A stretch of 23,732 nt of DNA, taken from positions 1 to 23,732 of the IMG/VR virus record IMGVR_UViG_3300025840_000245; one strand, given 5' to 3'. The position numbers and the translations under genes are program-made. The notes beneath the pieces were generated by a model. That model was not told where the DNA came from and ran no database searches. It saw only the letters and a program-made list of their open reading frames with translations. The stretch is from a virus. The number at the start of each line of letters is the position of its first letter. The first letter of the stretch is position 1. Positions 899 through 23,167 of the stretch are shown here, piece by piece.

Positions 899-906
899 CG
901 CACGAG

Positions 907-927
907 AAGGGGTCTACACGGCCCCTT
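907..927. terminator. Hairpin between convergent operons
   Basis: A 6-bp perfect stem, AAGGGG (907-912) with CCCCTT (922-927), closes a 9-base loop. It sits between the stop codon of the plus-strand SSB-tail gene and the stop codon of the minus-strand endolysin, overlapping the latter's last base. The position suits a shared, bidirectional terminator. The T-run following on the plus strand is short (TTTAG), so intrinsic termination may be weak. Confidence 0.5.
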
Positions 928-1274
928 TAGTATTCCCATAGTACGGGTACACTCTGACGCGTATCGACGTGTACGAAGCTCTTGTGGATTCCTATGCCAC
1001 TGAAGCCCATTGCCATAGCGTTTTTCACTATCAAGTAGCGTTGATTACCGTCTGCTACCGCAATATCTGCCGCAATACCCTGTGCATGAGTGCCTGGCTT
1101 AGACTTCTTGGCCTCAATAGAATGGTTGGGAGATCTGTAACCGCTGGTTATTTTGAACCCGAATCCACACTCATGTCTCAAGGCATCGAGGGCATGGATG
1201 AACTCGTCCTTCATCATGTTGTTGCCTGTTTCTTGGCAGTCAAATTCTTCCCGCGTGAAGTATCGGAATGTCAT
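927..1274 (-). CDS. M15-family peptidase endolysin
   Basis: This 115-residue protein is a compact zinc peptidase of the M15 (D-Ala-D-Ala carboxypeptidase-like, Peptidase_M15_3 type) family, which phages use to cleave peptidoglycan cross-bridges or stem peptides during lysis. The motifs are intact: SGYRS at residues 44-48, then H63 and D70 in the HxxGxAxD-type block THAQGIAADI, and H102 in FVHVD. These three are the expected zinc ligands. There is no signal peptide and no cell-wall binding domain, so export must depend on a holin. The ATG at 1274 overlaps the TGA of the upstream 51-residue gene as ATGA, indicating coupled translation. It is the last gene of the minus-strand unit, next to several small membrane proteins. 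Exact bond specificity cannot be read from sequence. Confidence 0.88.
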   Translation of the reverse strand: MTFRYFTREEFDCQETGNNMMKDEFIHALDALRHECGFGFKITSGYRSPNHSIEAKKSKPGTHAQGIAADIAVADGNQRYLIVKNAMAMGFSGIGIHKSFVHVDTRQSVPVLWEY

Positions 1275-1426
1275 TTCTTGTAGGCAGTCTTAGCAGATTC
1301 TCTAAATGCCTTGGCAGTAGGAGCACCAGCAGTACCAGGCTTTCTCATTTTCTCACCAGATCCAGCAGCAATACGTTTACGTTTAGCATGGATGTTTGCG
1401 TACAATCCTTTCTTGGGTTTTCTCAT
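1271..1426 (-). CDS. Small basic conserved phage protein (51 aa)
   Basis: This very short gene encodes 51 residues beginning MRKPKKGLYANIHAKRKR and continuing with IAAGSGEKMRKPGTAGAPTAKAF. I recognise the KGLYANIHAKRKRIAAGSGE pattern as a recurrent small basic protein of phages, without an assigned function. The start is fixed by context: the upstream gene's TAA and this ATG overlap as TAATG, and AAGGTG lies 8 bases before it. An in-frame ATG two codons upstream (1432) has only 2 bases to that ribosome site and is less likely. Its TGA overlaps the endolysin ATG. Strong positive charge suggests nucleic-acid or ribosome association, but this is a guess; no membrane segment is present. Confidence 0.85.
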   Translation of the reverse strand: MRKPKKGLYANIHAKRKRIAAGSGEKMRKPGTAGAPTAKAFRESAKTAYKK

Positions 1427-1704
1427 TACCATTTCACCTTGTTAGCCCAGTAAGCCGCAGACATTTTGCCTCTGGCTATGTTCTTCCTGTGACGTGCCTT
1501 GAATGATTCACGTCTCTTTCTACGAGATTCAGACTCACCTTCTTGTTTAGGAGATCCGCTGACACCCTGCTGTCCGAATCGAATAGTCTTGACTTGATCG
1601 CCAGACTTGGCTACTACCACATGAGACTTGGTAGGATGCTTAGGTGTACGCTTTGGTTTGTTATACCCAGATACACCGATACGTTTTAGTAACGACTCGC
1701 TCAC
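1426..1704 (-). CDS. Conserved basic phage protein of unknown function (92 aa)
   Basis: This 92-residue, strongly basic protein has a recognisable conserved core: KSHVVVAKSGDQVKTIRFGQ at about residues 26-45, then GVSGSPKQEGESESRRKRRESFKAR, and an end of the type GKMSAAYWANKVKW. I know this pattern as a recurrent phage protein without an assigned function. The start is a GTG at 1704, overlapping the TGA of the upstream 43-residue gene as GTGA, with AGGAAG just upstream; its TAA overlaps the next ATG as TAATG. High Arg/Lys content and lack of hydrophobic stretches suggest a soluble RNA/DNA- or virion-associated protein (inference). It lies inside the lysis-side cassette but shows no lysis motif. 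Confidence 0.85.
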   Translation of the reverse strand: MSESLLKRIGVSGYNKPKRTPKHPTKSHVVVAKSGDQVKTIRFGQQGVSGSPKQEGESESRRKRRESFKARHRKNIARGKMSAAYWANKVKW

Positions 1705-1832
1705 TTCTTCCTCGACTTACCCGCCTTGGAGTATGCAATAGCCACTGCTTGCTTGGGCTTGTAGCCTTCATCCAGCAGAGTGCGAACATTCTTCTTCATG
1801 GTCTTTTTGGCTTTACCTTTGAGTAACGGCAT
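1701..1832 (-). CDS. Small phage protein with KQAVAIAxSKAGKS motif (43 aa)
   Basis: This 43-residue basic protein begins MPLLKGKAKKTMKKN and ends with KPKQAVAIAYSKAGKSRKK. The pattern of a lysine-rich start followed by G(Y/K)xxKQAVAIA(L/Y)SKAG is a repeatedly seen small phage protein whose function I do not know. The ATG at 1832 overlaps the upstream stop as TAATG, and its TGA overlaps the GTG start of the next gene. Despite its size, the tight overlap on both ends and the recognisable motif make it a real gene. The C-terminal half would form one short helix; an RNA- or protein-binding peptide is possible but unproven. Confidence 0.8.
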   Translation of the reverse strand: MPLLKGKAKKTMKKNVRTLLDEGYKPKQAVAIAYSKAGKSRKK

Positions 1833-2014
1833 TACTTATCCTTAGCTCGGAATACGTTAAGAGCCAAAATGTCTACAACCTTGTACAGCTTAGACCATGC
1901 CTTGCCTAAGTGACTAACCATCTCATCGTCTTTAGGAGTAGGGGTCATTGCAGCTAATGAGGATGCACAAGCAATGATTACAGATACCATCTCTACATAT
2001 TCAAATATACCCAT
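1832..2014 (-). CDS. Small membrane-associated protein, possible holin component (60 aa)
   Basis: This 60-residue protein has a hydrophobic N-terminal half (residues 2-23, FEYVEMVSVIIACASSLAAM type), then a conserved-looking TPTPKDDEM turn, and a second moderately hydrophobic stretch near 46-55 (VVDILALNVF). I recognise the ...ACASSLAAMTPTPKDD... pattern from small proteins in other aquatic phages, usually unassigned or called holin-like. The arrangement, one sure membrane helix plus an amphipathic one, and a position among other tiny membrane proteins just upstream of the endolysin, fit a lysis role. The ATG lies one base after the previous gene's TGA, and its TAA overlaps the next ATG. The holin role is inference. 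Confidence 0.8.
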   Translation of the reverse strand: MGIFEYVEMVSVIIACASSLAAMTPTPKDDEMVSHLGKAWSKLYKVVDILALNVFRAKDK

Positions 2015-2015
2015 A

Positions 2016-2171
2016 TCACTTCCTTATCAATTCGTTAATGGCTTTCCACGCTTCGATCATCTTAGATTCAAGAACATCCAGACGGTTTAAGATCTTGCCA
2101 ATCGTTAGCACGAGAATGAATATGCCAGCAGCTATCGGCCAGCCTGAGACAATAATCTCCCATGTTTCCAT
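2016..2171 (-). CDS. Single-span membrane protein with C-terminal helix (51 aa)
   Basis: This 51-residue gene starts at an ATG that overlaps the upstream TAA as TAATG and ends one base before the next ATG. Residues 6-26 (IIVSGWPIAAGIFILVLTIG) form one clear membrane helix, followed by an amphipathic, heptad-like helix (ILNRLDVLESKMIEAWKAINELIRK). One N-terminal span plus a short coiled-coil-like tail recalls inner-membrane spanins or single-span holins, but it is much shorter than typical Rz proteins and no outer-membrane partner is visible. A lysis role is likely from context only. Confidence 0.75.
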   Translation of the reverse strand: METWEIIVSGWPIAAGIFILVLTIGKILNRLDVLESKMIEAWKAINELIRK

Positions 2172-2338
2172 TAGCCATCTCGTTTAACTAATTTCTGCAC
2201 CGTGTCAGACTCCCATATTCTTAGAGCCAACCAGATGATCGTGAACAAACTAGCGATACTAGGAAGCCAACCAGCTAAGGTAGCGACAGTGCCACCGACT
2301 GCTAATGAATCCATAACTGTTTTAGCTTCCTCTTGCAT
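2171..2338 (-). CDS. Putative holin (55 aa)
   Basis: This 55-residue protein has a polar N-terminus (MQEEAKTVMDS), a long hydrophobic region from about residue 11 to 42 that can form one long or two short membrane helices separated by the turn GWLPS, then the soluble tail RIWESDTVQKLVKRDG. The FTIIWLALRIWESDTVQKL pattern is familiar from small conserved phage proteins. Size, topology and position upstream of an endolysin suit a class II-like holin. The ATG at 2338 is preceded by AGGTG (inside the upstream gene's stop region), and its TAA overlaps the next ATG. Export or pore function is inferred, not shown. Confidence 0.78.
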   Translation of the reverse strand: MQEEAKTVMDSLAVGGTVATLAGWLPSIASLFTIIWLALRIWESDTVQKLVKRDG

Positions 2339-2345
2339 ACATCAC

Positions 2346-2645
2346 CTATGTCAATGAGACCCACTTGGAGCCGAATCGTATTGTAATATTGTCTCCACCA
2401 GTAAACTCTCCGGTCTTACACCCAGCACGATAGAACAATGGTTCAGGTTCAAAGCCTACATTCTCGCTGATAGACGTGAAGGTATCTACGTCAGTCCAGG
2501 TAGAATCATCAGTGCTACGTTGTACAGTAACGATAGTACCCGCGCTCAGAGTGCCTCGGATAGAGAAGTTAAAGTCTCCTTCAAAACGGAATGAATCACT
2601 GAATGTATTGGCAGCGGTTATGTTCTTCTCAATAAGCGTAGTCAT
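2346..2645 (-). CDS. Predicted beta-sandwich virion-type protein (99 aa)
   Basis: This 99-residue protein starts at an ATG overlapping the upstream TAA (TAATG). It is rich in alternating hydrophobic/polar residues and Thr/Ser/Gly: TVQRSTDDSTWTDVDTFT is the central motif, followed by a segment with FYRAGCKTGEFTGGDNITIRFG. This pattern of a strand, an S-x-D-x-S-T-W turn, and the phrase FYRAG is that of a small all-beta domain found in phage structural proteins. It sits between tailspike genes and the lysis cassette. It may be a head or tail decoration protein; I recognise the type but no named family, so the role remains inferred. Confidence 0.8.
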   Translation of the reverse strand: MTTLIEKNITAANTFSDSFRFEGDFNFSIRGTLSAGTIVTVQRSTDDSTWTDVDTFTSISENVGFEPEPLFYRAGCKTGEFTGGDNITIRFGSKWVSLT

Positions 2646-14692: not shown

Positions 14693-15106
14693 TTATACCT
14701 TCATTCCCGCAATTTGCGTTCCAGTCTGTAATAAAGTAGATGCAGCTTGCATTTTCCCAACTTGACGTGCAGATGTAGCCTGTCTGCGTAATTGAGCTTG
14801 TTTTAGTTTTTCAGATAGCCCAATAGTAGCTTCACTTAGGCTAGCTCGTTCAGCACTAGCCAATGCAATACTAGCGGGCGTACCTTCTCCAGCAATACCA
14901 GACATAGCTTGGCCTACTACATTAGCGGCTAATGCTCTGTTTAATTCTTCTCGACGTTGCAATTCACGGCTTTGAGCAGAAATTCGTTCTTCTTCAGCCT
15001 GACGTTTCAGCTCGATCTCTTGGGTTTTCCCAGCGACATATTGCGCTCTAGCAGTTGTTGCTCCACTAGCAGCAGCAAGTATTGCGAATATAGTAAAAGG
15101 ATCCAT
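14693..15106 (-). CDS. Internal virion protein (gp14-like)
   Basis: This 137-residue protein begins with a hydrophobic stretch, MDPFTIFAILAAASGATTARAQ, followed by a long charged helix (EIELKRQAEEERISAQSRELQRREELNRALAAN) and the phrase GQAMSGIAGEGTPASIALASAE. That layout, with an N-terminal membrane-seeking helix, a coiled helix and the SGI-GEGTP-S-A motif, is typical of small internal virion proteins in the T7 gp14 position, which insert in the outer membrane at DNA entry. It lies between the nozzle and gp15-like genes; its ATG overlaps the nozzle stop as TAATG. T7 gp14 is about 196 residues, so this is a shortened form. Function by analogy. Confidence 0.82.
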   Translation of the reverse strand: MDPFTIFAILAAASGATTARAQYVAGKTQEIELKRQAEEERISAQSRELQRREELNRALAANVVGQAMSGIAGEGTPASIALASAERASLSEATIGLSEKLKQAQLRRQATSARQVGKMQAASTLLQTGTQIAGMKV

Positions 15107-17652
15107 TAGCTGCTTTCAACCTCGTATTCAATCATCTGTATATGTACTGGAGTAGGATCTGGTGCCGTTATCGATGGCATTGCATCCCTAGTCCAACCTA
15201 TTGTGTTTAATACATCTTCTATTATGCCAGTTTTTGCATTAGGAGATGTATTTAATGGTGATACTGACGAGTAGCCAAACTCTCTGATAGGCACTGGTTG
15301 ACCATCTACATAGTAACCATAAGACTGGTAGACCCGAATGTTCATGCGCACGATACGCTTGATACGCATCTGGTTCTCGCCACTGCCTATATTCGTGTTC
15401 AGAGGCATACCAGTTACTTCTACAGGGAAGTTTAGGCCGACTTCTACGTTGGTATAGCCTACTTCTTCAGAAGTTAATGTAATTTCGCCAGCGTTTACAG
15501 TCCGTTCTGGCAACACAATACCGTCGGCAACTATTTGTACCGTTAATCCATTCAGATGAAACAGCCCAGCTATGGTGGTATCCGTTGGGCCAGGATTGAA
15601 TATAATAGAATCGTCCATCAAATGATCGAAAGACCACTTTTCAATGTGATATTCGGTAGTATTGTGAGCGTCTACTTTGCGCTTGACGATCATGTACAGC
15701 TCGTCATCCACTACTGAGGCATTAGTTACTATGCTGTCTTCAGGTGTGGCAGTTGGATATGTTGTAGATGCAGCAATCCATTGTGTGAAACCATTGATAT
15801 CCTGGTCTCGCAGGGTATTTAAGACTGTAACCGTACCATCGGTATTGGTTATAAATAGCCAGTTGGCATCCTCGCTAGTTGTACCAGACAACATAGCCAT
15901 GTCAGTAGGCTGTTTGATTAGATGTGACGATAGTACCGACCTATCATGCGTAACATAGGCATCTTCATTGAACGAATAGACAAAATCATAAATAGTCTTG
16001 CCGTTCCTATCTACGAATATAGTAGATCCATCTACATCTACTACCTCAATATACGATGACCCGTGATTAGTTTGTGGTGTAATACCCACAGACGTAGGCG
16101 TAACAGGCTTGCTGGTAACAGAAAACTCTGCCCCAGACGTAAATATCTGTAAGTTTCGACCTGGATAAACGTCGATAATCTCATTTAGCTTGCGTGAGGA
16201 TATGGTGGCAAATATGCCTTCATCGTCATCCCCATCGTCAATATCAAAGTCAAAGAACGATCCTGATTTAGAGAAAAAGATAGATGCAGTCTTAGATTTC
16301 GTACCACCTAGAACTAATCGGCCTTCAAAGAAACATGCAGTCTTAGGATAGCCACGAGTAGCAGACCAGACAGGTTCCTTTCTAGGAGATCCAGTAGCGA
16401 CTTTGGTAAATGTTAATAGGTTTGTAGCATTGCCTTTGGTAAAAAACCCAGAAAACAATTCAAAGTCTTTAGTCGATTCACCGCTAATTGTTATCTGATA
16501 GGTTAATACCCCTGTTCTGGCAACTGCAACACCAGTCTCCCCGAAACTAGGCATTTCTTGAAGGTTCTTCTGAATGTTAAAGACCGTAGAATTACGTTGA
16601 TCTGCCGTAGCATCACCAGCAAAAGTGATATTTTTTGACAATATGCCTTCAACATCTACTTGGAATGTATCTCCAAGCTGTAACGACCCGCCACTAATAA
16701 CCATGTTTTGTACTTCATTAACAGGCGTAGGGCTTAGATCATCATCAAAGTCATAGGTTGGCACATTGGTATATGGCGCTGCATCCAAAAACCAATCTTC
16801 GTCTGTACCCAAGTTAATTAGTCTTTGTGTAGGCACATCCTCATGGAATAACAGCATGACGCTTTCGGTTTGAGTATCACGAACAGTACGTACTTGGTCT
16901 GACGTAAACGGCATCTTAACGGACGCCACATAGGTGCCAGGATTTTTATATATATTTATGTTTTGATCGGTTAAAACTAACAAATAATTTCTGTCAGTCT
17001 CGACACTAAAGTCTATTAGCTTGGCTTCTGACGGATCAACAATACCGCCAGCTCGCATCATAAATCCAAAACCAGCCATTGTGACTGTGGTAGTGGTTAA
17101 ATCAGTAGTCCCAATACGGGCCAATCTCCAATACCTTGTAGACAATCCTAATTGTGGAAGATAAAACCTAAAGTCCTGTGGGTTAGTGCCTATTAATGGA
17201 ACGTCAGCCGCATCAGTCCACGCGATACCATCTTGCGATTTCTGTATTTTAAACTCACTAGAAGTGCCAGCAGATAAACTAATACGCCTGAGATCGATAA
17301 AGACAATAGTTTGAGATGTTACAAAGTCTAATTGAGCAACTACATAAGGATCTGTAGTAGAAATTCCTACAGTAGTAGACGTAGTAGTGGTATCGTCATC
17401 GTCTCGCAACGTAGCAGGAGTACCACCGTTAGGCATGGTCATAACGCCTAGACCAGTGCTTACGATCTTTTCTGGTGCTATGCCAATATGTTGAGTGCCA
17501 GGTCTTCTCTTGACCCCGCCTTGTGGTACTAAAACTACATTCTTGGCAGTCTGCAAGCCTTGGTAATACTGATTAATGTCAGTACGACCACGCAATAATG
17601 GAGACAACTCTCCACTGACAAAGTTATTCTGTAGAAATCTTGACTTAGCCAT
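15106..17652 (-). CDS. Tail nozzle protein (T7 gp12-like) with inserted discoidin-like domain
   Basis: This 848-residue protein corresponds to T7 gp12 (tail tubular protein B, about 794 residues), the tail nozzle. The conserved start is clear: QNNFVSGELSPLLRGRTDIN at 8-27 and NVVLVPQGGVKRRPGTQHIG at 38-57. In related proteins the next element, of the type KLIDFSVETDRNYLLVLTDQ, follows closely; here it begins only at residue 211. The intervening about 70-197 look like an F5/8C (discoidin) type beta-sandwich: NGGTPATLRDDDDTTT, FKIQKSQDGIAWTDA and STRYWRLARIG. The rest follows a beta-propeller-like pattern, including FFEGRLVLGGT and FTSGAEFSVTSKPVTPTS. Its ATG lies 8 bases inside the previous gene. 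The insertion is by-eye recognition; the nozzle assignment is firm. Confidence 0.9.
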   Translation of the reverse strand: MAKSRFLQNNFVSGELSPLLRGRTDINQYYQGLQTAKNVVLVPQGGVKRRPGTQHIGIAPEKIVSTGLGVMTMPNGGTPATLRDDDDTTTTSTTVGISTTDPYVVAQLDFVTSQTIVFIDLRRISLSAGTSSEFKIQKSQDGIAWTDAADVPLIGTNPQDFRFYLPQLGLSTRYWRLARIGTTDLTTTTVTMAGFGFMMRAGGIVDPSEAKLIDFSVETDRNYLLVLTDQNINIYKNPGTYVASVKMPFTSDQVRTVRDTQTESVMLLFHEDVPTQRLINLGTDEDWFLDAAPYTNVPTYDFDDDLSPTPVNEVQNMVISGGSLQLGDTFQVDVEGILSKNITFAGDATADQRNSTVFNIQKNLQEMPSFGETGVAVARTGVLTYQITISGESTKDFELFSGFFTKGNATNLLTFTKVATGSPRKEPVWSATRGYPKTACFFEGRLVLGGTKSKTASIFFSKSGSFFDFDIDDGDDDEGIFATISSRKLNEIIDVYPGRNLQIFTSGAEFSVTSKPVTPTSVGITPQTNHGSSYIEVVDVDGSTIFVDRNGKTIYDFVYSFNEDAYVTHDRSVLSSHLIKQPTDMAMLSGTTSEDANWLFITNTDGTVTVLNTLRDQDINGFTQWIAASTTYPTATPEDSIVTNASVVDDELYMIVKRKVDAHNTTEYHIEKWSFDHLMDDSIIFNPGPTDTTIAGLFHLNGLTVQIVADGIVLPERTVNAGEITLTSEEVGYTNVEVGLNFPVEVTGMPLNTNIGSGENQMRIKRIVRMNIRVYQSYGYYVDGQPVPIREFGYSSVSPLNTSPNAKTGIIEDVLNTIGWTRDAMPSITAPDPTPVHIQMIEYEVESS

Positions 17653-18355
17653 TGCGCGTTACTTTTACAAAGAAGTCATCGGTCTGAAGTGTGCAATTTT
17701 TATCTGCTATCGCTTTAAATTGTGCAGGAGACGTTCTCGTATCTTCATCCCTTATGGGAAAAGAAGTGTATCGAGTGGCTTCAAACAGACCAGCAAATTG
17801 GAAATTCTGTGTAGTGATAAACGGCACTTTATACTGAGCACCACCAGATCCAAGAAACAAATCCAATTCTATTTCGGTGTTGTTGCTGGTAGTTGTAGGC
17901 TGGACAATAATCCTCATTTCAACAGCATCGCCTACTGCTAACTCACTAAAATCAAACGAGCTTGTCCCAGCATTCCACAAATTAGTCACGCCCAATGGAA
18001 GATAGGCGTTAGTGGTATTTGTTCCTAGCGCATCATTGGGGATTATGGTGAACACACCCGCAGCCAAGGTCGTCGTTGTAACCTTAGAATCTTCGTAAAC
18101 AGCATATCCCGCGCTAGTAAGACCGCTTCTAGCTATTGTCACAGACTTTTTACTGACAGCCGTTACCACGACCGTGTAAACAAGCGTTGTGTTTATGATA
18201 TTAATTAGATCATTAACTTGTAATTTTGTAGACGCTTCGCTGAAATAATTTGCCGAAGTGACAGTCGCTTGAGAGTCATTAGTGTAATAGGTGTAGATCC
18301 TTGGCGCTGGAGAAGACCCACCAACATGAGACAGTGTTTCATTGGTGAAAGCCAT
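17645..18355 (-). CDS. Accessory virion protein with duplicated N-terminal domain (236 aa)
   Basis: This 236-residue protein lies between the gp11- and gp12-like genes, where T7 has no gene. Its first about 55 residues align without gaps to the 85-residue protein encoded at 18956-19213: both begin MAF, share LS-x-x-GGS, then DS-ATVT and YF, and then LQVND. I count about 24 identities over 52 positions. After this domain comes a second region (about 85-236) rich in beta strands, including a VEMRIIVQPTTTSNNTEIEL segment and an end of the type DDFFVKVTRNG. It is probably a head or tail decoration or connector accessory protein. Its ATG overlaps the adaptor's TAA (TAATG) and its end overlaps the nozzle gene by 8 bases. 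No known family recognised with certainty. Confidence 0.82.
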   Translation of the reverse strand: MAFTNETLSHVGGSSPAPRIYTYYTNDSQATVTSANYFSEASTKLQVNDLINIINTTLVYTVVVTAVSKKSVTIARSGLTSAGYAVYEDSKVTTTTLAAGVFTIIPNDALGTNTTNAYLPLGVTNLWNAGTSSFDFSELAVGDAVEMRIIVQPTTTSNNTEIELDLFLGSGGAQYKVPFITTQNFQFAGLFEATRYTSFPIRDEDTRTSPAQFKAIADKNCTLQTDDFFVKVTRNG

Positions 18356-18912
18356 TAGTACCTCACATTAACAAATGGGTTACTCGTGATGGGGGTCGTT
18401 GGGTATTGTTGTGAATCCGTGTAGCGGGCCATCCTAGAAGCATTGACGTACTCGGCAGACATTTCCATTCTGGATGCAGAGCTATCTCTGATGCTGGTGG
18501 CAAAGTCTTTAGCCAGAGCATACTCGATCATCTTGGAGAAATAAGAAGGCCAGTTTGCTTCAGGAACATTGTAAATATAGTCGCAATAAAGTGGGCCATT
18601 GTTATTGGTATACACCTTGTTGCCATAAATCTGGTAGTTGACGCTAGGGTACAACTTAATTAAGAACAATATATCAGCAGGAAGCTGGTAGATTGATTGC
18701 CATTCTTGATCGACTGGCGTATCGGTAGTCAATGCCAACTGAGCCTTAGCCCTAGCAAATCCCCAGCGATGCTTAGTCAATTCATTCTGGACTATGCTGT
18801 CGTAAAGGGCATTAGCAACTTGTTGTGCTCGTGAGTTACCGATCAATGAGTTAATGGGTGTGTCGCCTATTAAGACTAACGCAGCACTAACTAAATCAAT
18901 TTTAGTTGCCAT
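18355..18912 (-). CDS. Tail adaptor / tail tubular protein A (T7 gp11-like)
   Basis: This 185-residue protein matches the T7 gp11-type adaptor that joins portal and nozzle (T7 gp11 is 196 residues). The diagnostic N-terminus MATKIDLVSAALVLIGDTPI and the following ALYDSIVQNELTKHRWGFAR block are clear, with YQLPADILFLIKLYP and a helix (YFSKMIEYALAKDFA) later. I chose the ATG at 18912 rather than an upstream in-frame TTG at 18951, because a GGTAGGA ribosome site lies just before it and the extra 13 residues would read through a terminator-like hairpin. Its TAA overlaps the next gene's ATG. Confidence 0.9.
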   Translation of the reverse strand: MATKIDLVSAALVLIGDTPINSLIGNSRAQQVANALYDSIVQNELTKHRWGFARAKAQLALTTDTPVDQEWQSIYQLPADILFLIKLYPSVNYQIYGNKVYTNNNGPLYCDYIYNVPEANWPSYFSKMIEYALAKDFATSIRDSSASRMEMSAEYVNASRMARYTDSQQYPTTPITSNPFVNVRY

Positions 18913-18933
18913 ATTCCTACCTGTAAGAATGAT

Positions 18934-18949
18934 GGGGGCCGAAGCCCCC
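18934..18949 (-). terminator. GC-rich hairpin with UUCG tetraloop
   Basis: The minus strand reads GGGGGC-TTCG-GCCCCC, a perfect 6-bp GC stem closed by a C(UUCG)G tetraloop, beginning six bases after the stop of the 85-residue gene and followed by ATCATTCTT. This is the most stable short hairpin in the window. It probably acts as a partial terminator or as a 3' end stabiliser for the abundant capsid-region mRNA; the weak U-tract means some readthrough into the tail genes. Confidence 0.7.
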
Positions 18950-18955
18950 AATCAC

Positions 18956-19226: not shown

Positions 19227-20060
19227 TTAAGCAGTCTTGTCGTATTGAACTTTAACCAGACCACCCTCGTCGCGAACGACAGAGCCAGCTTTCAGCATAC
19301 CGTTGCTTAACCAAGAGGTACGCTCAGGAATCCAGTTAATTTCAGTTTTCATGTCGATGCCGACAGCCAAGCCAACAGCAGGACGCTGGTAGAACCAAGA
19401 GTCAACAATGTTCGCTGCCTCAGTCAAACCACCTTCAGTACGAGTTTCGATAATGATGAACTGGAACCCTACGAGAGTGTTCACTTCACCAGAAACAAGT
19501 GCCTTGATAGCTTGATAGTCAGAAGACGTTGCCTTCTCATCGTTCAACAACCCACCCAAGCCTTCTGCTTCAATAGCAGCAAATAGCTCAGTGTTAGGTA
19601 CACCTTGGTCACGTAACTCAACTTGAGCTTGGATTACCTTGGCCATAGTCAGGTTAGCTGCTCCAGCAGGAACCGTAGTGGTCAGCGGAGTAGAAGCGTC
19701 CATAGCGTCGATAACCAACTGATCGCAACGACGACCCAAAGCACCAGCAATAGTCATTGCCAATTCTTGCTTCTCATCGAAGTTTACGTCAGCCTGGTCA
19801 AAGATGTCAGTGTACTCAGGAGCGTTCCAGTTGGCCAAAGTAGCCGTCTTGAACTCGTGAGCAACATCCATCGGAGTTACCAGATCAGAAGTTGATTTTT
19901 GGTTTGCAAGGCCTTTGCCCATGCGACGGAATTTGTAGGTATCACCTACAACGTTGTTTCGGACAGTGACAGAATTCTTCAGCAAGCCCATACCTTGGTA
20001 GGCATGTTTTACCATGCTGTCAAACTCTGTTACTGCTACAGCAGATAAAGTTTTTGACAT
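19227..20060 (-). CDS. Major capsid protein
   Basis: This 277-residue protein lies directly after the scaffold gene and is recognisable as a podovirus major capsid protein. Informative stretches are AVTEFDSMVKHAYQG near the N-terminus, VGDTYKFRRMGKGLANQK, ANWNAPEYTDIFDQADVN, and a C-terminal part with SWFYQRPAVGLAVGIDMKTE and KAGSVVRDEGGLV. These are compatible with an HK97-fold coat protein, although it is shorter than T7 gp10A (345 residues). I place the start at the ATG at 20060 (MSKTLSAVAV), 9 bases after GAGGAA; an in-frame TTG at 20075 overlaps that ribosome site and is unlikely. A long structured leader with a promoter-like sequence precedes it, fitting high expression. Fold is inferred. 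Confidence 0.9.
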   Translation of the reverse strand: MSKTLSAVAVTEFDSMVKHAYQGMGLLKNSVTVRNNVVGDTYKFRRMGKGLANQKSTSDLVTPMDVAHEFKTATLANWNAPEYTDIFDQADVNFDEKQELAMTIAGALGRRCDQLVIDAMDASTPLTTTVPAGAANLTMAKVIQAQVELRDQGVPNTELFAAIEAEGLGGLLNDEKATSSDYQAIKALVSGEVNTLVGFQFIIIETRTEGGLTEAANIVDSWFYQRPAVGLAVGIDMKTEINWIPERTSWLSNGMLKAGSVVRDEGGLVKVQYDKTA

Positions 20061-20098
20061 TAGTCTATTCCTCAAATTGTCAAATAATTCAACGCGAA

Positions 20099-20239: not shown

Positions 20240-20986
20240 CTATCCAAATGTCTGCACATAAGGCTTGTCGCCTCCATACTCCTTCATCATTCGCTGGATC
20301 TTGGCTTCATGGTTGCGATCTACTGATCTCATCAAGTTACCGTTCTCGTCTTTACGGAACATTTCACGCTCGATATCCTCCCAAGTAATGCCTCCAGGTT
20401 GGATATATCCGTCAATAGGTAACTTAGCAGGGGCAGTAGCGTTGATTAATGCCTCTACTAGCTCTACTGATTCAGCACTATTGACCGCATAGCGTAGACG
20501 TTCGTAGGTATCACTATCGAGATTGTTCTTCATGAACTGCTCGACAGTCTTGATTCGTTCTATACCGTTGTCACCAAGTTTAGCTATTTCGACTTCAGCG
20601 GAAACTTCTTCTACTGCCTCGGATTGTGCAGACAGAATCTCCCATGCCTTGTTGAAATAGTCTTGCGACATATTAGATTCGTTGGCAAAATTAACTAACT
20701 CTTGCAATAACTCGTCGTCGGACTCTACACCTTCAGGCATTGAGTATCCGTCTTTAGGCGCACCCTTAAATGCACCAAACTTTTTCTCCAGCTCTGTGTA
20801 CGCAGCAGCTTGATCCGCAACTGACTTGTATTTGTCAGCCTTGTACCATTCTGGACGTTCGCCAGTACCTTTGATTCCTTCCGTTAAGAAGTATTCGTTC
20901 TCCCCTAACTGCGGTTCAGCAGCATCTACCAGACTAACTGGTTGCGCTTCTTCCAGGGTATCGTTTTCTACGGCCTGTTCGCTCAT
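20240..20986 (-). CDS. Capsid scaffolding / assembly protein
   Basis: This 248-residue acidic, helical protein lies between portal-proximal genes and the capsid gene, the position of T7 gp9. The N-terminal half carries the pattern of podovirus scaffolds: EYFLTEGIKGTGERPEWYKADKYKSVADQAAAY, then LEKKFGAFKGAPKDGYSMPEG. A coiled, Glu-rich middle follows (about 100-150), and the C-terminus is basic and amphipathic (EAKIQRMMKEYGG), as expected of a coat-binding end. I set the start at the ATG at 20986, 7 bases after GGAG; the in-frame TTG at 20998 overlaps that site. It should direct procapsid assembly and then leave. Confidence 0.87.
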   Translation of the reverse strand: MSEQAVENDTLEEAQPVSLVDAAEPQLGENEYFLTEGIKGTGERPEWYKADKYKSVADQAAAYTELEKKFGAFKGAPKDGYSMPEGVESDDELLQELVNFANESNMSQDYFNKAWEILSAQSEAVEEVSAEVEIAKLGDNGIERIKTVEQFMKNNLDSDTYERLRYAVNSAESVELVEALINATAPAKLPIDGYIQPGGITWEDIEREMFRKDENGNLMRSVDRNHEAKIQRMMKEYGGDKPYVQTFG

Positions 20987-20988
20987 AT

Positions 20989-21312
20989 TTATCTCCAAGG
21001 ATATTGAATGACAGCCCTTCTAGGACTGACCGCTTGATGTTTCAAACGGATTTCTACAAGTCTCCTGCCTCCATTAATTAGAGACAGGTCATTGATATCT
21101 ACCCAATCCACATGCTTGCCTGCTCGGTAGCATCTGAACGCTCGGAACTTATGGATGTACTCAAACTTCTCGAATCCATACTGTTCTGCTAGGTCATATA
21201 GCCATTCAAATTTAAACCCTAGATCAATTAGGTAAGGCTTTTCATCACAGGCAATTTCTGGCCCTGTGGGGTCTTCTCTCTTGACACGTCTTTTCTTAAC
21301 TGCTTCTGTCAT
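20989..21312 (-). CDS. Conserved small phage protein between Bbp19-like and scaffold genes (107 aa)
   Basis: This 107-residue protein has a basic N-terminus (TEAVKKRRVKREDPTG), then a compact aromatic-rich core (PYLIDLGFKFEWLYDLAEQYGFEKFEYIHKFRAFRCYRAG) and an end of the type RLVEIRLKHQAVSPRRA. I do not recognise a named family. Its ATG overlaps the Bbp19-like stop as ATGA, and its own stop forms part of the scaffold gene's ribosome site, so it is tightly embedded in the head-assembly block. A role in head assembly or DNA packaging is suggested by location only. Confidence 0.78.
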   Translation of the reverse strand: MTEAVKKRRVKREDPTGPEIACDEKPYLIDLGFKFEWLYDLAEQYGFEKFEYIHKFRAFRCYRAGKHVDWVDINDLSLINGGRRLVEIRLKHQAVSPRRAVIQYPWR

Positions 21313-21584
21313 AGTTTCTCCGCTTGCTGGATTTGGTGAACAATGTACCGCATGACGCCAGCCTCACCGTTATGGTAGGCAGCTTCATAGTTTATGTTCT
21401 GTGCCGCAAGAGAGGTGTCGTTTTCTAAGAGGAATCGTTTGGTCATATCCTCTAATACTTTTTGCCCATCGTCAGTGCCGAAGCATCGGTTGTAAGCCTT
21501 AGCTAACTCAACCTGTCTTTCTCTGATTGCACTTTGAGCTTCCCTCGCCTTGTCCTCGTTTACCTCTAAATCATCCCAACTCAT
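21309..21584 (-). CDS. Bbp19-like phage protein (91 aa)
   Basis: This 91-residue protein carries the pattern of Bbp19-type phage domains, small proteins next to the portal gene in podoviruses such as Bordetella phage BPP-1: a helical, charged N-terminus, then AYNRCFGTDDGQKVLEDMTK at about residues 30-49, and later AAYHNGEAGVMRYIVHQIQ at about 69-87, matching the family's F-GT-DGQ-VL ... G---V---I pattern. The ATG overlaps the portal's TGA as ATGA. Function of the family is not established; location suggests a role near the portal or in assembly. Confidence 0.78.
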   Translation of the reverse strand: MSWDDLEVNEDKAREAQSAIRERQVELAKAYNRCFGTDDGQKVLEDMTKRFLLENDTSLAAQNINYEAAYHNGEAGVMRYIVHQIQQAEKL

Positions 21585-23167
21585 TGCACCGCCTGTAGTT
21601 GTGGTGGTTGTTGAGGTTGTTGGGCTTGTGCTTCCATCTGTTTAGCCTCTGCCCCAGCTTGAATAATGCGTTGTTTCTCGGCATCATCTCGTACCAGATC
21701 GGAACTCATGCCTGTTTTCTCTGCTACCCAAGTACCAAAGTCTTCAATCTTGAACGCCATCTGCACTTGATCCGGCCCAGCAGTAGCTAAAACAAACTCT
21801 ACGGCTTGCTGAACTGCTAGAATGTCCTCAGAATCCTGTGCTCGTGCTAGTGGTGACGTAAATTTAATTTCTACATCTCTACCATCTAACTCGATAGGGG
21901 TGATTAAGCCCCTACGGATCAGGATAGATACCACGCGCTTAAGGATTGGGATCAATACTTCAGTCTGTAGTCGTCCGAATGCACTACCAATTCTCTTGGC
22001 TAACTCTCTGGACTCGATAGCAATCTCAGTTGCTGTCCTAACTGGCCCTGCTGGATCGCGCAAGTCGTTAAACATGGCAATCTTGATAGCATTTTGCAGC
22101 TCTACTATCTCGAATTGGGCCAATGCCAAGCTAGATGACGTGTCTAAACGCTGTATAGACGGATTATTGGTGTTGTTAGAACCAACTGGAATAACAATTC
22201 CTGGTGCTATAACCATATTGTATGGATTAGTAACCCCATCGTCGGTTGCAGTGTACATTCCTGCTAGGTCAATAGCGGCCTTCTGCAATACGAACTCTTT
22301 AGACTTGTTTAGTGACTTAACATCGGGCAGTGTTTGCATCGCTGGCCCTCTACCGCGTACCTCACCAGAGACTTTGGTGTACCGTCCAGTCACCCAAGGG
22401 GATGAATTACCAAAATCTTCTACCCATGACAGCCTTTCTTCCTGTTTAACCCATAGGCAACCGTAGTATTTCTTGTCTTTAGGGTCATAAACCACGCCTT
22501 CAGACACTTCTACCTCGGTATCAGGCTTGTTATCAATCATGTTTTGGACGTTGGTAGATGGTTGGAACCCTTTCCACATCCTTTCAAGCAATCTAGCCTT
22601 GACCTTGAACCGTCTCCAATGGGTTTCGATGGTACCGTTTGGCCCTTCTTCAAAGGCTATACCCTTCTGAGGAATACAGTTAAAGACAATAGGCATGGAA
22701 TCGTCTTCTGTTTCGTCAATCTTGAGCGTAGCAGTGCCGATTAACAGGTCTAATGCGGCCTCATAGAACTGAGTACCGAAGTTAGACCGATTAATATAGT
22801 CAAAAACTATCTCTGCTTGCTTCTCTAGGTTCTCTCTGATCTGCTTCTCGGTGACGTTGAAGTCTCCGGTCTCCAGTAGATTGAGAATTTCGTTCGACGG
22901 GTTGAATGTAGCCCATCTAGCCCAGATCGGAGCGATGTTTTCTTGGAGTTTGCTAGCGCCCTGCTGGATAGCAGTTAATGACGTAGAGTCAAATATGCGA
23001 TCCATCTTCTTTTGACCCTTGTCTTCGATCTCAAACAGGTTTCTTTGGGGTAAGAAGTACTCGTAAACGCTTGTTAGTTGATCGTGCCACTTGGCCTCAG
23101 AATCAAACGCCCTACTCTCTCGGCTCTTTAGGTCTTGGAGCGAACCAAGATGCGGGGGAAGTTTCAT
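21581..23167 (-). CDS. Portal protein (head-to-tail connector, T7 gp8-like)
   Basis: This 528-residue protein is the podovirus portal (T7 gp8 is 536 residues), the dodecameric ring through which DNA enters the head. Typical elements are LKSRESRAFDSEAKWHDQLT near the N-terminus, MDRIFDSTSLTAIQQGASKL at about 55-75, NFGTQFYEAALDLLIGTATL, LNKSKEFVLQKAAIDL, and the C-terminal region with GPVRTATEIAIESRELAKRIG and FGRLQTEVLIPILKRV. The C-terminal about 20 residues are Gln/Pro-rich and probably disordered. The ATG overlaps the preceding TAA as TAATG. This is the most secure assignment in the window; no terminase lies beside it here. Confidence 0.93.
   Translation of the reverse strand: MKLPPHLGSLQDLKSRESRAFDSEAKWHDQLTSVYEYFLPQRNLFEIEDKGQKKMDRIFDSTSLTAIQQGASKLQENIAPIWARWATFNPSNEILNLLETGDFNVTEKQIRENLEKQAEIVFDYINRSNFGTQFYEAALDLLIGTATLKIDETEDDSMPIVFNCIPQKGIAFEEGPNGTIETHWRRFKVKARLLERMWKGFQPSTNVQNMIDNKPDTEVEVSEGVVYDPKDKKYYGCLWVKQEERLSWVEDFGNSSPWVTGRYTKVSGEVRGRGPAMQTLPDVKSLNKSKEFVLQKAAIDLAGMYTATDDGVTNPYNMVIAPGIVIPVGSNNTNNPSIQRLDTSSSLALAQFEIVELQNAIKIAMFNDLRDPAGPVRTATEIAIESRELAKRIGSAFGRLQTEVLIPILKRVVSILIRRGLITPIELDGRDVEIKFTSPLARAQDSEDILAVQQAVEFVLATAGPDQVQMAFKIEDFGTWVAEKTGMSSDLVRDDAEKQRIIQAGAEAKQMEAQAQQPQQPPQLQAVQ

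Follow-up and report, generated by a model that had tools for sequence, protein, structure and literature searches.

Cobavirus endolysin genes have small membrane genes nearby that have been reported as potential holins or antiholins (PMC6775973). In the parts of that account available to us, the lysis region of SIO1 and of ICBM1/2 places the endolysin and the small membrane genes in the late arm, with a bidirectional terminator between the arms. A similar arrangement is present in virus record IMGVR_UViG_3300025840_000245, whose whole stretch of 23,732 bases (hereafter the window) is analysed here and in which a cassette of six small genes precedes an endolysin. The enzymes differ, being lysozyme-like in ICBM1, an amidase in ICBM2 and an M15 peptidase in the window. 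Three of the six cassette genes encode basic proteins, p4, p3 and p2, and the available parts of the cobavirus account contain no discussion of this trio. We read the cassette as a lysis unit interleaved with three small basic head proteins at the 3' end of a translationally coupled late operon, and assign this reading a probability of roughly 0.5.

Architecture and coding status of the cassette

Read directly from the sequence, the cassette runs along the minus strand from 2338 to 1271 and comprises three candidate membrane-protein genes (TM1, TM2 and TM3) followed by p4, p3 and p2. The six genes span 43–92 codons and are joined by TAATG or GTGA overlaps or by a 1-nucleotide (nt) gap (Table 1). 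The original prediction, a cassette of tiny overlapping genes at 1271–2338, had all junctions right, as well as the four genes shorter than 60 codons; its count of six genes also stands, whereas its size range of 43–115 codons does not, the value of 115 belonging to the endolysin. An alternative in-frame ATG at 1432 would lengthen p2 to 53 codons.

All six cassette frames and the endolysin are under purifying selection. The ratio of non-synonymous to synonymous polymorphism (pN/pS) was taken between the window and relatives of at least 60% identity, with synonymous sites near saturation for most and with p2, p3 and p4 relatives that are partly non-syntenic; it amounted to 0.19 for TM1 (65 distinct sequences), 0.11 for TM2 (33), 0.11 for TM3 (9), 0.36 for p4 (26), 0.24 for p3 (115), 0.23 for p2 (128) and 0.26 for the endolysin (95). 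The claim that these tiny genes are real is thus upheld by selection on every frame and by relatives in viral contigs that number at least in the hundreds, and the loss of reading frames in related phages that might have spoken against it was not seen, all six being kept at pN/pS values of 0.11–0.36. The notion that the short frames are spurious could appeal to lengths under the usual cut-offs and to the lack of an annotated feature for p3 in SIO1, but it is contradicted by the selection, by the abundance of relatives, by recurrent overlaps and by the confident fold of p3, and is almost certainly wrong.

The endolysin matches Pfam PF08291 (Peptidase_M15_3; 44.7 bits against a cut-off of 23.2) and the endolysin family phrog_894 (E 1.8e-30). 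The proposal of three membrane-protein candidates near it is borne out by hydropathy, with best 19-residue values of 2.35 for TM2, 1.82 for TM1 and 1.67 for TM3, the lowest value making TM3 the weakest membrane call. None of the three matched the profile of a known holin family: at E up to 1, TM1 and TM2 hit nothing in Pfam, PHROGs or NCBIfam, and TM3 matches only PHROGs of unknown function (phrog_9685, E 3.6e-14), with nine relatives all 60 amino acids (aa) long. TM1 relatives are encoded in 355 of 377 pattern stretches of viral contigs. Among 50,697 phage records TM1 finds four matches, each annotated as hypothetical, and TM2 none at E 0.01; the 33 distinct TM2 relatives are every one 51 aa long. 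Position and hydropathy suggest a holin function for TM1 and TM2.

Each locus scan covered the best 80 loci. In the TM1 scan, p2 and/or p3 were present at 27 of the 80 loci and neither at 53, some contigs simply ending; three of the 27 (L311, L313 and L314) carry p4, p3 and p2 in the gene order of the window, with extra DNA and no TM3 match. The co-occurrence in uncultured phages envisaged by the original prediction is seen at these 27 loci, with the full trio in 3, while elsewhere the trio is loose. Clusters of TM1, TM2 and endolysin without basic genes also occur (for example L263, L276 and L289), and these genes are therefore able to form a lysis unit alone.

Families and gene contexts of the basic proteins

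As had been predicted, p4, p3 and p2 are strongly basic peptides of recurrent phage families. Near-full-length profile matches assign p4 to phrog_2423 (E 3.1e-17; net charge +12), p3 to phrog_7595 (E 2.3e-40; +18) and p2 to phrog_16028 (E 1.3e-26; +14 for the 53-aa form), p2 also occurring inside larger PHROGs. The strongest functional hint, read from sequence, is the presence of p4 in one protease family and of p3 in another. The p4 family phrog_2423 corresponds to residues 1–44 in L138, L145 and the protein of Leptolyngbya phage Lbo-JY16, all three DUF2213 head-maturation proteases, and the p3 family phrog_7595 corresponds to residues 184–261 of the ICP1 capsid protease (E 5.8e-11), in which PF14550 lies at 36–160 and whose gene is encoded between portal and scaffold.

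Head genes recur around the standalone genes as well. Compared with a set of 24 reference head/tail proteins, and with the loci of those references excluded, 27 basic-gene loci gave at least one match. MuF precedes p4 in 8 of them (within 170 nt in 7, at 757 nt in L079), a T7-like scaffold precedes p2 in 6, with DUF6321 between in 5, p3 lies next to or near the portal in 3, 2 are protease fusions, and the match lies farther away in 8. The locus L120 reads portal–MuF–p4–p2–p3–scaffold–coat, with only the start of the coat gene, and both p4/p2 and p2/p3 overlap by 4 nt. Among 17 annotated phages, picked to spread lineages and not at random, placement in a head block is clear in seven (KBS-S-2A, Lbo-JY16, P-SCSP1o, ICP1, HTVC022P, S45-C4 and KBS-P-1A), and MED4-184 is an eighth case, judged by gene sizes like those of KBS-S-2A. 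The position within the block varies: the pair of p2 and DUF6321 is flanked by scaffold and capsid in HTVC022P and uvMED S45-C4, by connector and a gp10-like gene in KBS-P-1A, and by capsid and tail tube in P-SCSP1o, and p4 and p3 lie between the minor head protein and the coat in KBS-S-2A. In four further phages (P12053L, SIO1, CRP-5 and D274) the genes stand at the end of a co-oriented arm, and in two (HMO-2011 and S-CBS2) the context is unclear. In part of the loci only, genes of these families are thus located in a head block or fused to a head protein.

The basic genes also cluster with one another, as judged by nearer versus farther partner distances, which served as the internal control. 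After near-identical loci had been dropped (79 to 75 for p2, 80 to 78 for p3, 79 to 74 for p4), p3 or DUF6321 was found within 400 bp on the same strand in 48 of the 75 p2 loci and at 400–5000 bp in 11; for p4 the corresponding counts are 22 and 3, and they include DUF6496-like proteins, since 6/28 p4 matches in the p2 scan, and 7/23 in the p3 scan, fall outside the MPL type. No p2 partner lies on the opposite strand (0/60 for p3 or DUF6321, 0/26 for p4). Adjacent pairs among p2, p3, p4 and DUF6321 less than 300 nt apart overlap by 1–14 nt in 70 of 129 cases, 41 by 1 nt and 26 by 4 nt, in loci that were not dereplicated; in the endolysin and TM1 scans every such pair overlaps (26/26). The order of p4, p3 and p2 varies among loci.

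For p3, AlphaFold2 gave a confident model (predicted local distance difference test (pLDDT) 91.2, predicted template-modelling score 0.79) consisting of a beta hairpin and helices. A fold search against the PDB returned nothing at E 0.001 or better, and VIA-align gave no Z of 2 or more among 323 chains aligned; among viral models, 10 match at E 0.001 or below, and ICP1 ORF125 is among the viral-model matches at E 0.0016–0.0055, as are proteins named ChaB and XkdF. Neither p2 nor p3 has a significant sequence match to solved proteins. Three candidate relationships of p3 were not upheld: likeness to KOW/uL24 and baseplate proteins (E 0.3, not significant), a histidine-based active site (His28 and His72 are absent from the ICP1 domain) and homology to DUF6321 (20.8% over 15 columns in a profile comparison). 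The DUF6321 profile of Pfam does not match window p3, and the p3 of L120 reaches 15 bits against a cut-off of 28.5. Identity to window p3 is 56–94% in 67 of 70 aligned relatives and 52, 46 and 43% in the other three. The 74 p3 loci in genome contigs, 70 titled metagenome-assembled genome, three 'Water_Bin34' and one an apparent single-cell assembly, are consistent with a virus-borne family. In SIO1 (AF189021; L003:5962-6216) an open p3 frame, 60% identical, has no annotated feature beneath it. In HMO-2011 (L405:2524-2817) p3 overlaps the start of an annotated 345-codon coding sequence in another frame, and one annotation or start site is doubtful.

The p4 model (pLDDT 87.7) has helices at residues 9–21 and 26–37, and its fold search against the PDB likewise returned nothing at E 0.001 or better. 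A transcription activator-like effector (TALE) DNA-binding repeat was rejected for p4: the summed E of 4.7e-8 comes from many weak repeats, the best single one scoring 9.1 bits, and no TALE fold stands among the 50 listed fold matches. The p4 helix G..P.QAVAIA resembles helix 1 of the TALE repeat and the C-terminus of DUF6496, probably as a shared helix motif only; window p4 has no match to DUF6496 in Pfam, and three other p4-like proteins do match it.

The p2 family is present in 108 phage records, cyanophages and pelagiphages included, and adjoins DUF6321 or p3 in many loci. In L104, p2 and p4 form a single open frame, as do p2 and a DUF6321-type stretch in L342 and L398. A p2 protein of ~52 aa in Roseobacter phage CRP-810 (gp49, L411:3755-3913) is annotated 'ribonucleotide reductase A subunit', and ribonucleotide-reductase labels overlap p2 in S-B28 and WH11-B, which looks like a copied mislabel. 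The short motif CWK[GD]Y...VPNC is also recurrent, either within larger proteins alongside p2 or p4 or in a short frame close to p3 (L087:4650-5465, L163:95-730 and L035:6146-6280).

Head assembly weighed against other roles

The reading of the cassette as lysis and head genes combined is based on the selection acting on the coding genes, the way they overlap, their repeated clustering, the frequent head-gene contexts and the fusions to head proteases. We infer a course of events in which TM1 and TM2, with TM3, would act as holin and antiholin and give the M15 endopeptidase access to the cell wall. Coupled translation would yield p4, p3 and p2 late and in matched, equal amounts, and the three proteins would enter or act on the growing prohead and bind the acidic scaffold, the incoming DNA or both. 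Nucleic-acid binding by the three proteins is possible in view of their charge. In phages whose maturation protease carries a p4 or p3 domain, that domain may dock the enzyme in the prohead.

A number of observations weigh against a head function. In the window itself the trio lies outside the head block, between the membrane genes and the endolysin and ~17 kb from the capsid gene. The trio is loose: among dereplicated loci, a partner within 400 bp is missing from 59 of the 74 with p4 and from 66 of the 78 with p3, and of the 103 close basic pairs that do not come from relatives of the window only 44 overlap. Other neighbourhoods exist: p3 adjoins the lysozyme in CRP-810 and lies near it in S-EIVl (2 of the 17 annotated phages), p2 sits inside a 272-aa protein among DNA-metabolism genes in Synechococcus phage Sf-FR1 (1 of 17), and a 682-aa open frame (L113:2-2047) combines a LysM domain with a C-terminal p3 domain. 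The p3 domain of ICP1 has a net charge of +1 versus +18 in window p3, so charge is not a fixed feature of the family. Furthermore, p3 co-occurs with four major-head-protein families (phrog_3437 in the window, phrog_247 in KBS-S-2A, phrog_1328 in CRP-810 and phrog_29 in ICP1), which would be odd for a coat-binding protein and fits a DNA, scaffold or host target too. The survey of neighbouring PHROGs is indicative only, as head genes turn up at distances above 3 kb too and the top 25 families per scan were covered. Virion proteomics of p2, p3 or p4 was not seen in the portions of the open-access literature available to us.

Retention of p3 across phages with different coat families would also suit cytoplasmic action on a conserved host component (RNA polymerase, the ribosome or the chromosome, for example), a role in host takeover with which the high charge and the basic genes at late-arm ends away from head genes agree. 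Yet the genes lie mostly among late structural genes in annotated records, the fusion partners are head proteases, p3 has no solved fold match, and p2 and p3 resemble no solved protein significantly in sequence; we consider such a role unlikely. For the trio, the head-region contexts and the fusions to head proteases speak more for head assembly than for host takeover. The mixture of functions originally predicted beside the endolysin is confirmed in that lysis and basic modules are interleaved; its holin-like component is retained, with candidates identified by position and hydropathy, whereas its host-takeover component has lost ground, contexts and fusions favouring head assembly. Small size, strong charge, head-linked contexts and protease fusions would also be expected of proteins packaged into the head together with the DNA and delivered to the next host, there protecting the genome or disabling defence in the manner of T4 internal proteins, and p3 has a weak match to phrog_220 ('minor head protein and DNA pilot'). 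Rapid divergence is usual for anti-defence proteins, however, and the high identity among p3 relatives does not fit this, which makes ejection an unlikely explanation too.

A control of lysis timing, for example through binding of the membrane or of holins, would account for the location of the trio between membrane genes and endolysin in the window and its relatives, with p2 and/or p3 at 27 of the 80 TM1 loci, and for the lysozyme gene beside p3 in CRP-810. Nevertheless, head modules contain these genes without an intervening lysis gene, and TM1, TM2 and endolysin occur without the basic genes, so that this role appears quite improbable.

Genomic setting and comparison with described families

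The minus strand of the window holds one long gene series with the cassette and the M15 endolysin at its 3' end, and a Sak-type annealing gene on the opposite strand faces the endolysin. The terminator-like hairpin between these convergent arms was not picked up by a pattern scan. The best match of the portal among phage records, where very near records were possibly omitted, is OM43 phage MEP301 at only 33.5% identity, and the window phage is therefore distant from the sequenced records searched. The beta-rich gene upstream of TM1 has no significant family in Pfam, PHROGs or NCBIfam, and it precedes TM1 in many close relatives. Window genes were profile-scanned in part, with two further genes giving no match, and the names of fibre and internal proteins derive from gene order and size.

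Table 1. Features of the window, with coordinates counted from its first base.
Feature	Coordinates	Strand	Length	Remarks
Terminator-like hairpin	906-928			Between convergent arms; fold of 896-934: z -3.1 on plus strand, z -0.7 on minus strand
Endolysin (Peptidase_M15_3)	927..1274	-	115 codons	Overlaps p2 by ATGA
p2	1271..1426	-	51 codons	Basic protein; followed by ATGA
p3	1426..1704	-	92 codons	Conserved basic protein; GTG start; followed by TAATG
p4	1701..1832	-	43 codons	Two-helix basic protein; followed by GTGA
TM3	1832..2014	-	60 codons	Possible N-terminal membrane segment; followed by TAATG
TM2	2016..2171	-	51 codons	Membrane protein, holin/antiholin candidate; followed by 1-nt gap
TM1	2171..2338	-	55 codons	Membrane protein, holin/antiholin candidate; followed by TAATG
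Beta-rich gene	2346..2645	-	99 aa	Just upstream of the cassette; 7-nt gap before TM1
Tail proteins	15106-17652 and 18355-18951			Profile matches
Major head protein	19227-20075			Profile match; family phrog_3437
Gene in the place of the scaffold	20240-20998		252 aa	Between portal and capsid; weak match to phrog_458 'protease', E 9.5e-5
Head-tail adaptor (portal)	21581-23167			Profile match

As direct members of PHROG 2423, 7595 and 16028, respectively, p4, p3 and p2 belong to families for which PHROGs give 'unknown function', and no literature on the trio, or naming DUF6321, DUF6496 or these PHROGs, was found among open-access sources. Their coupling and the protease fusions come from the present analysis and go beyond PHROGs. 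With at least hundreds of p2, p3 and p4 relatives in viral contigs, in families without function and sometimes unannotated, a link to head assembly makes function-less families testable, both for the role of small basic proteins in proheads and for the reason why some are protease-fused. More tentatively, p4, p2 and p3 (or DUF6321) may constitute a mobile, coupled prohead-interior kit shared by aquatic phages that differ in capsid family and host, standalone or protease-fused, that would perform one common job in the capsid interior, either enzyme recruitment or DNA organizing, which textbook phages lack or do otherwise; the p3 fold has no solved match, and we regard this wider proposal as possible but rather doubtful.

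The DUF2213 head-maturation proteases have the p4 domain (phrog_2423) at their N-terminus in common with the window, where p4 is standalone. Similarly, the ICP1 capsid protease Gp125 (Peptidase_S78_2, XkdF type) carries a C-terminal domain of the p3 family, and window p3 stands alone. In T7-like marine phages, DUF6321 (PF19846), with RR-SF-AR and a C-terminal Trp, adjoins p2 and occupies the place of p3. The internal and prohead core proteins of phage T4 are small basic proteins of the head interior; by analogy, p4, p3 and p2 would share with them small size, basic charge and a location inside the head.

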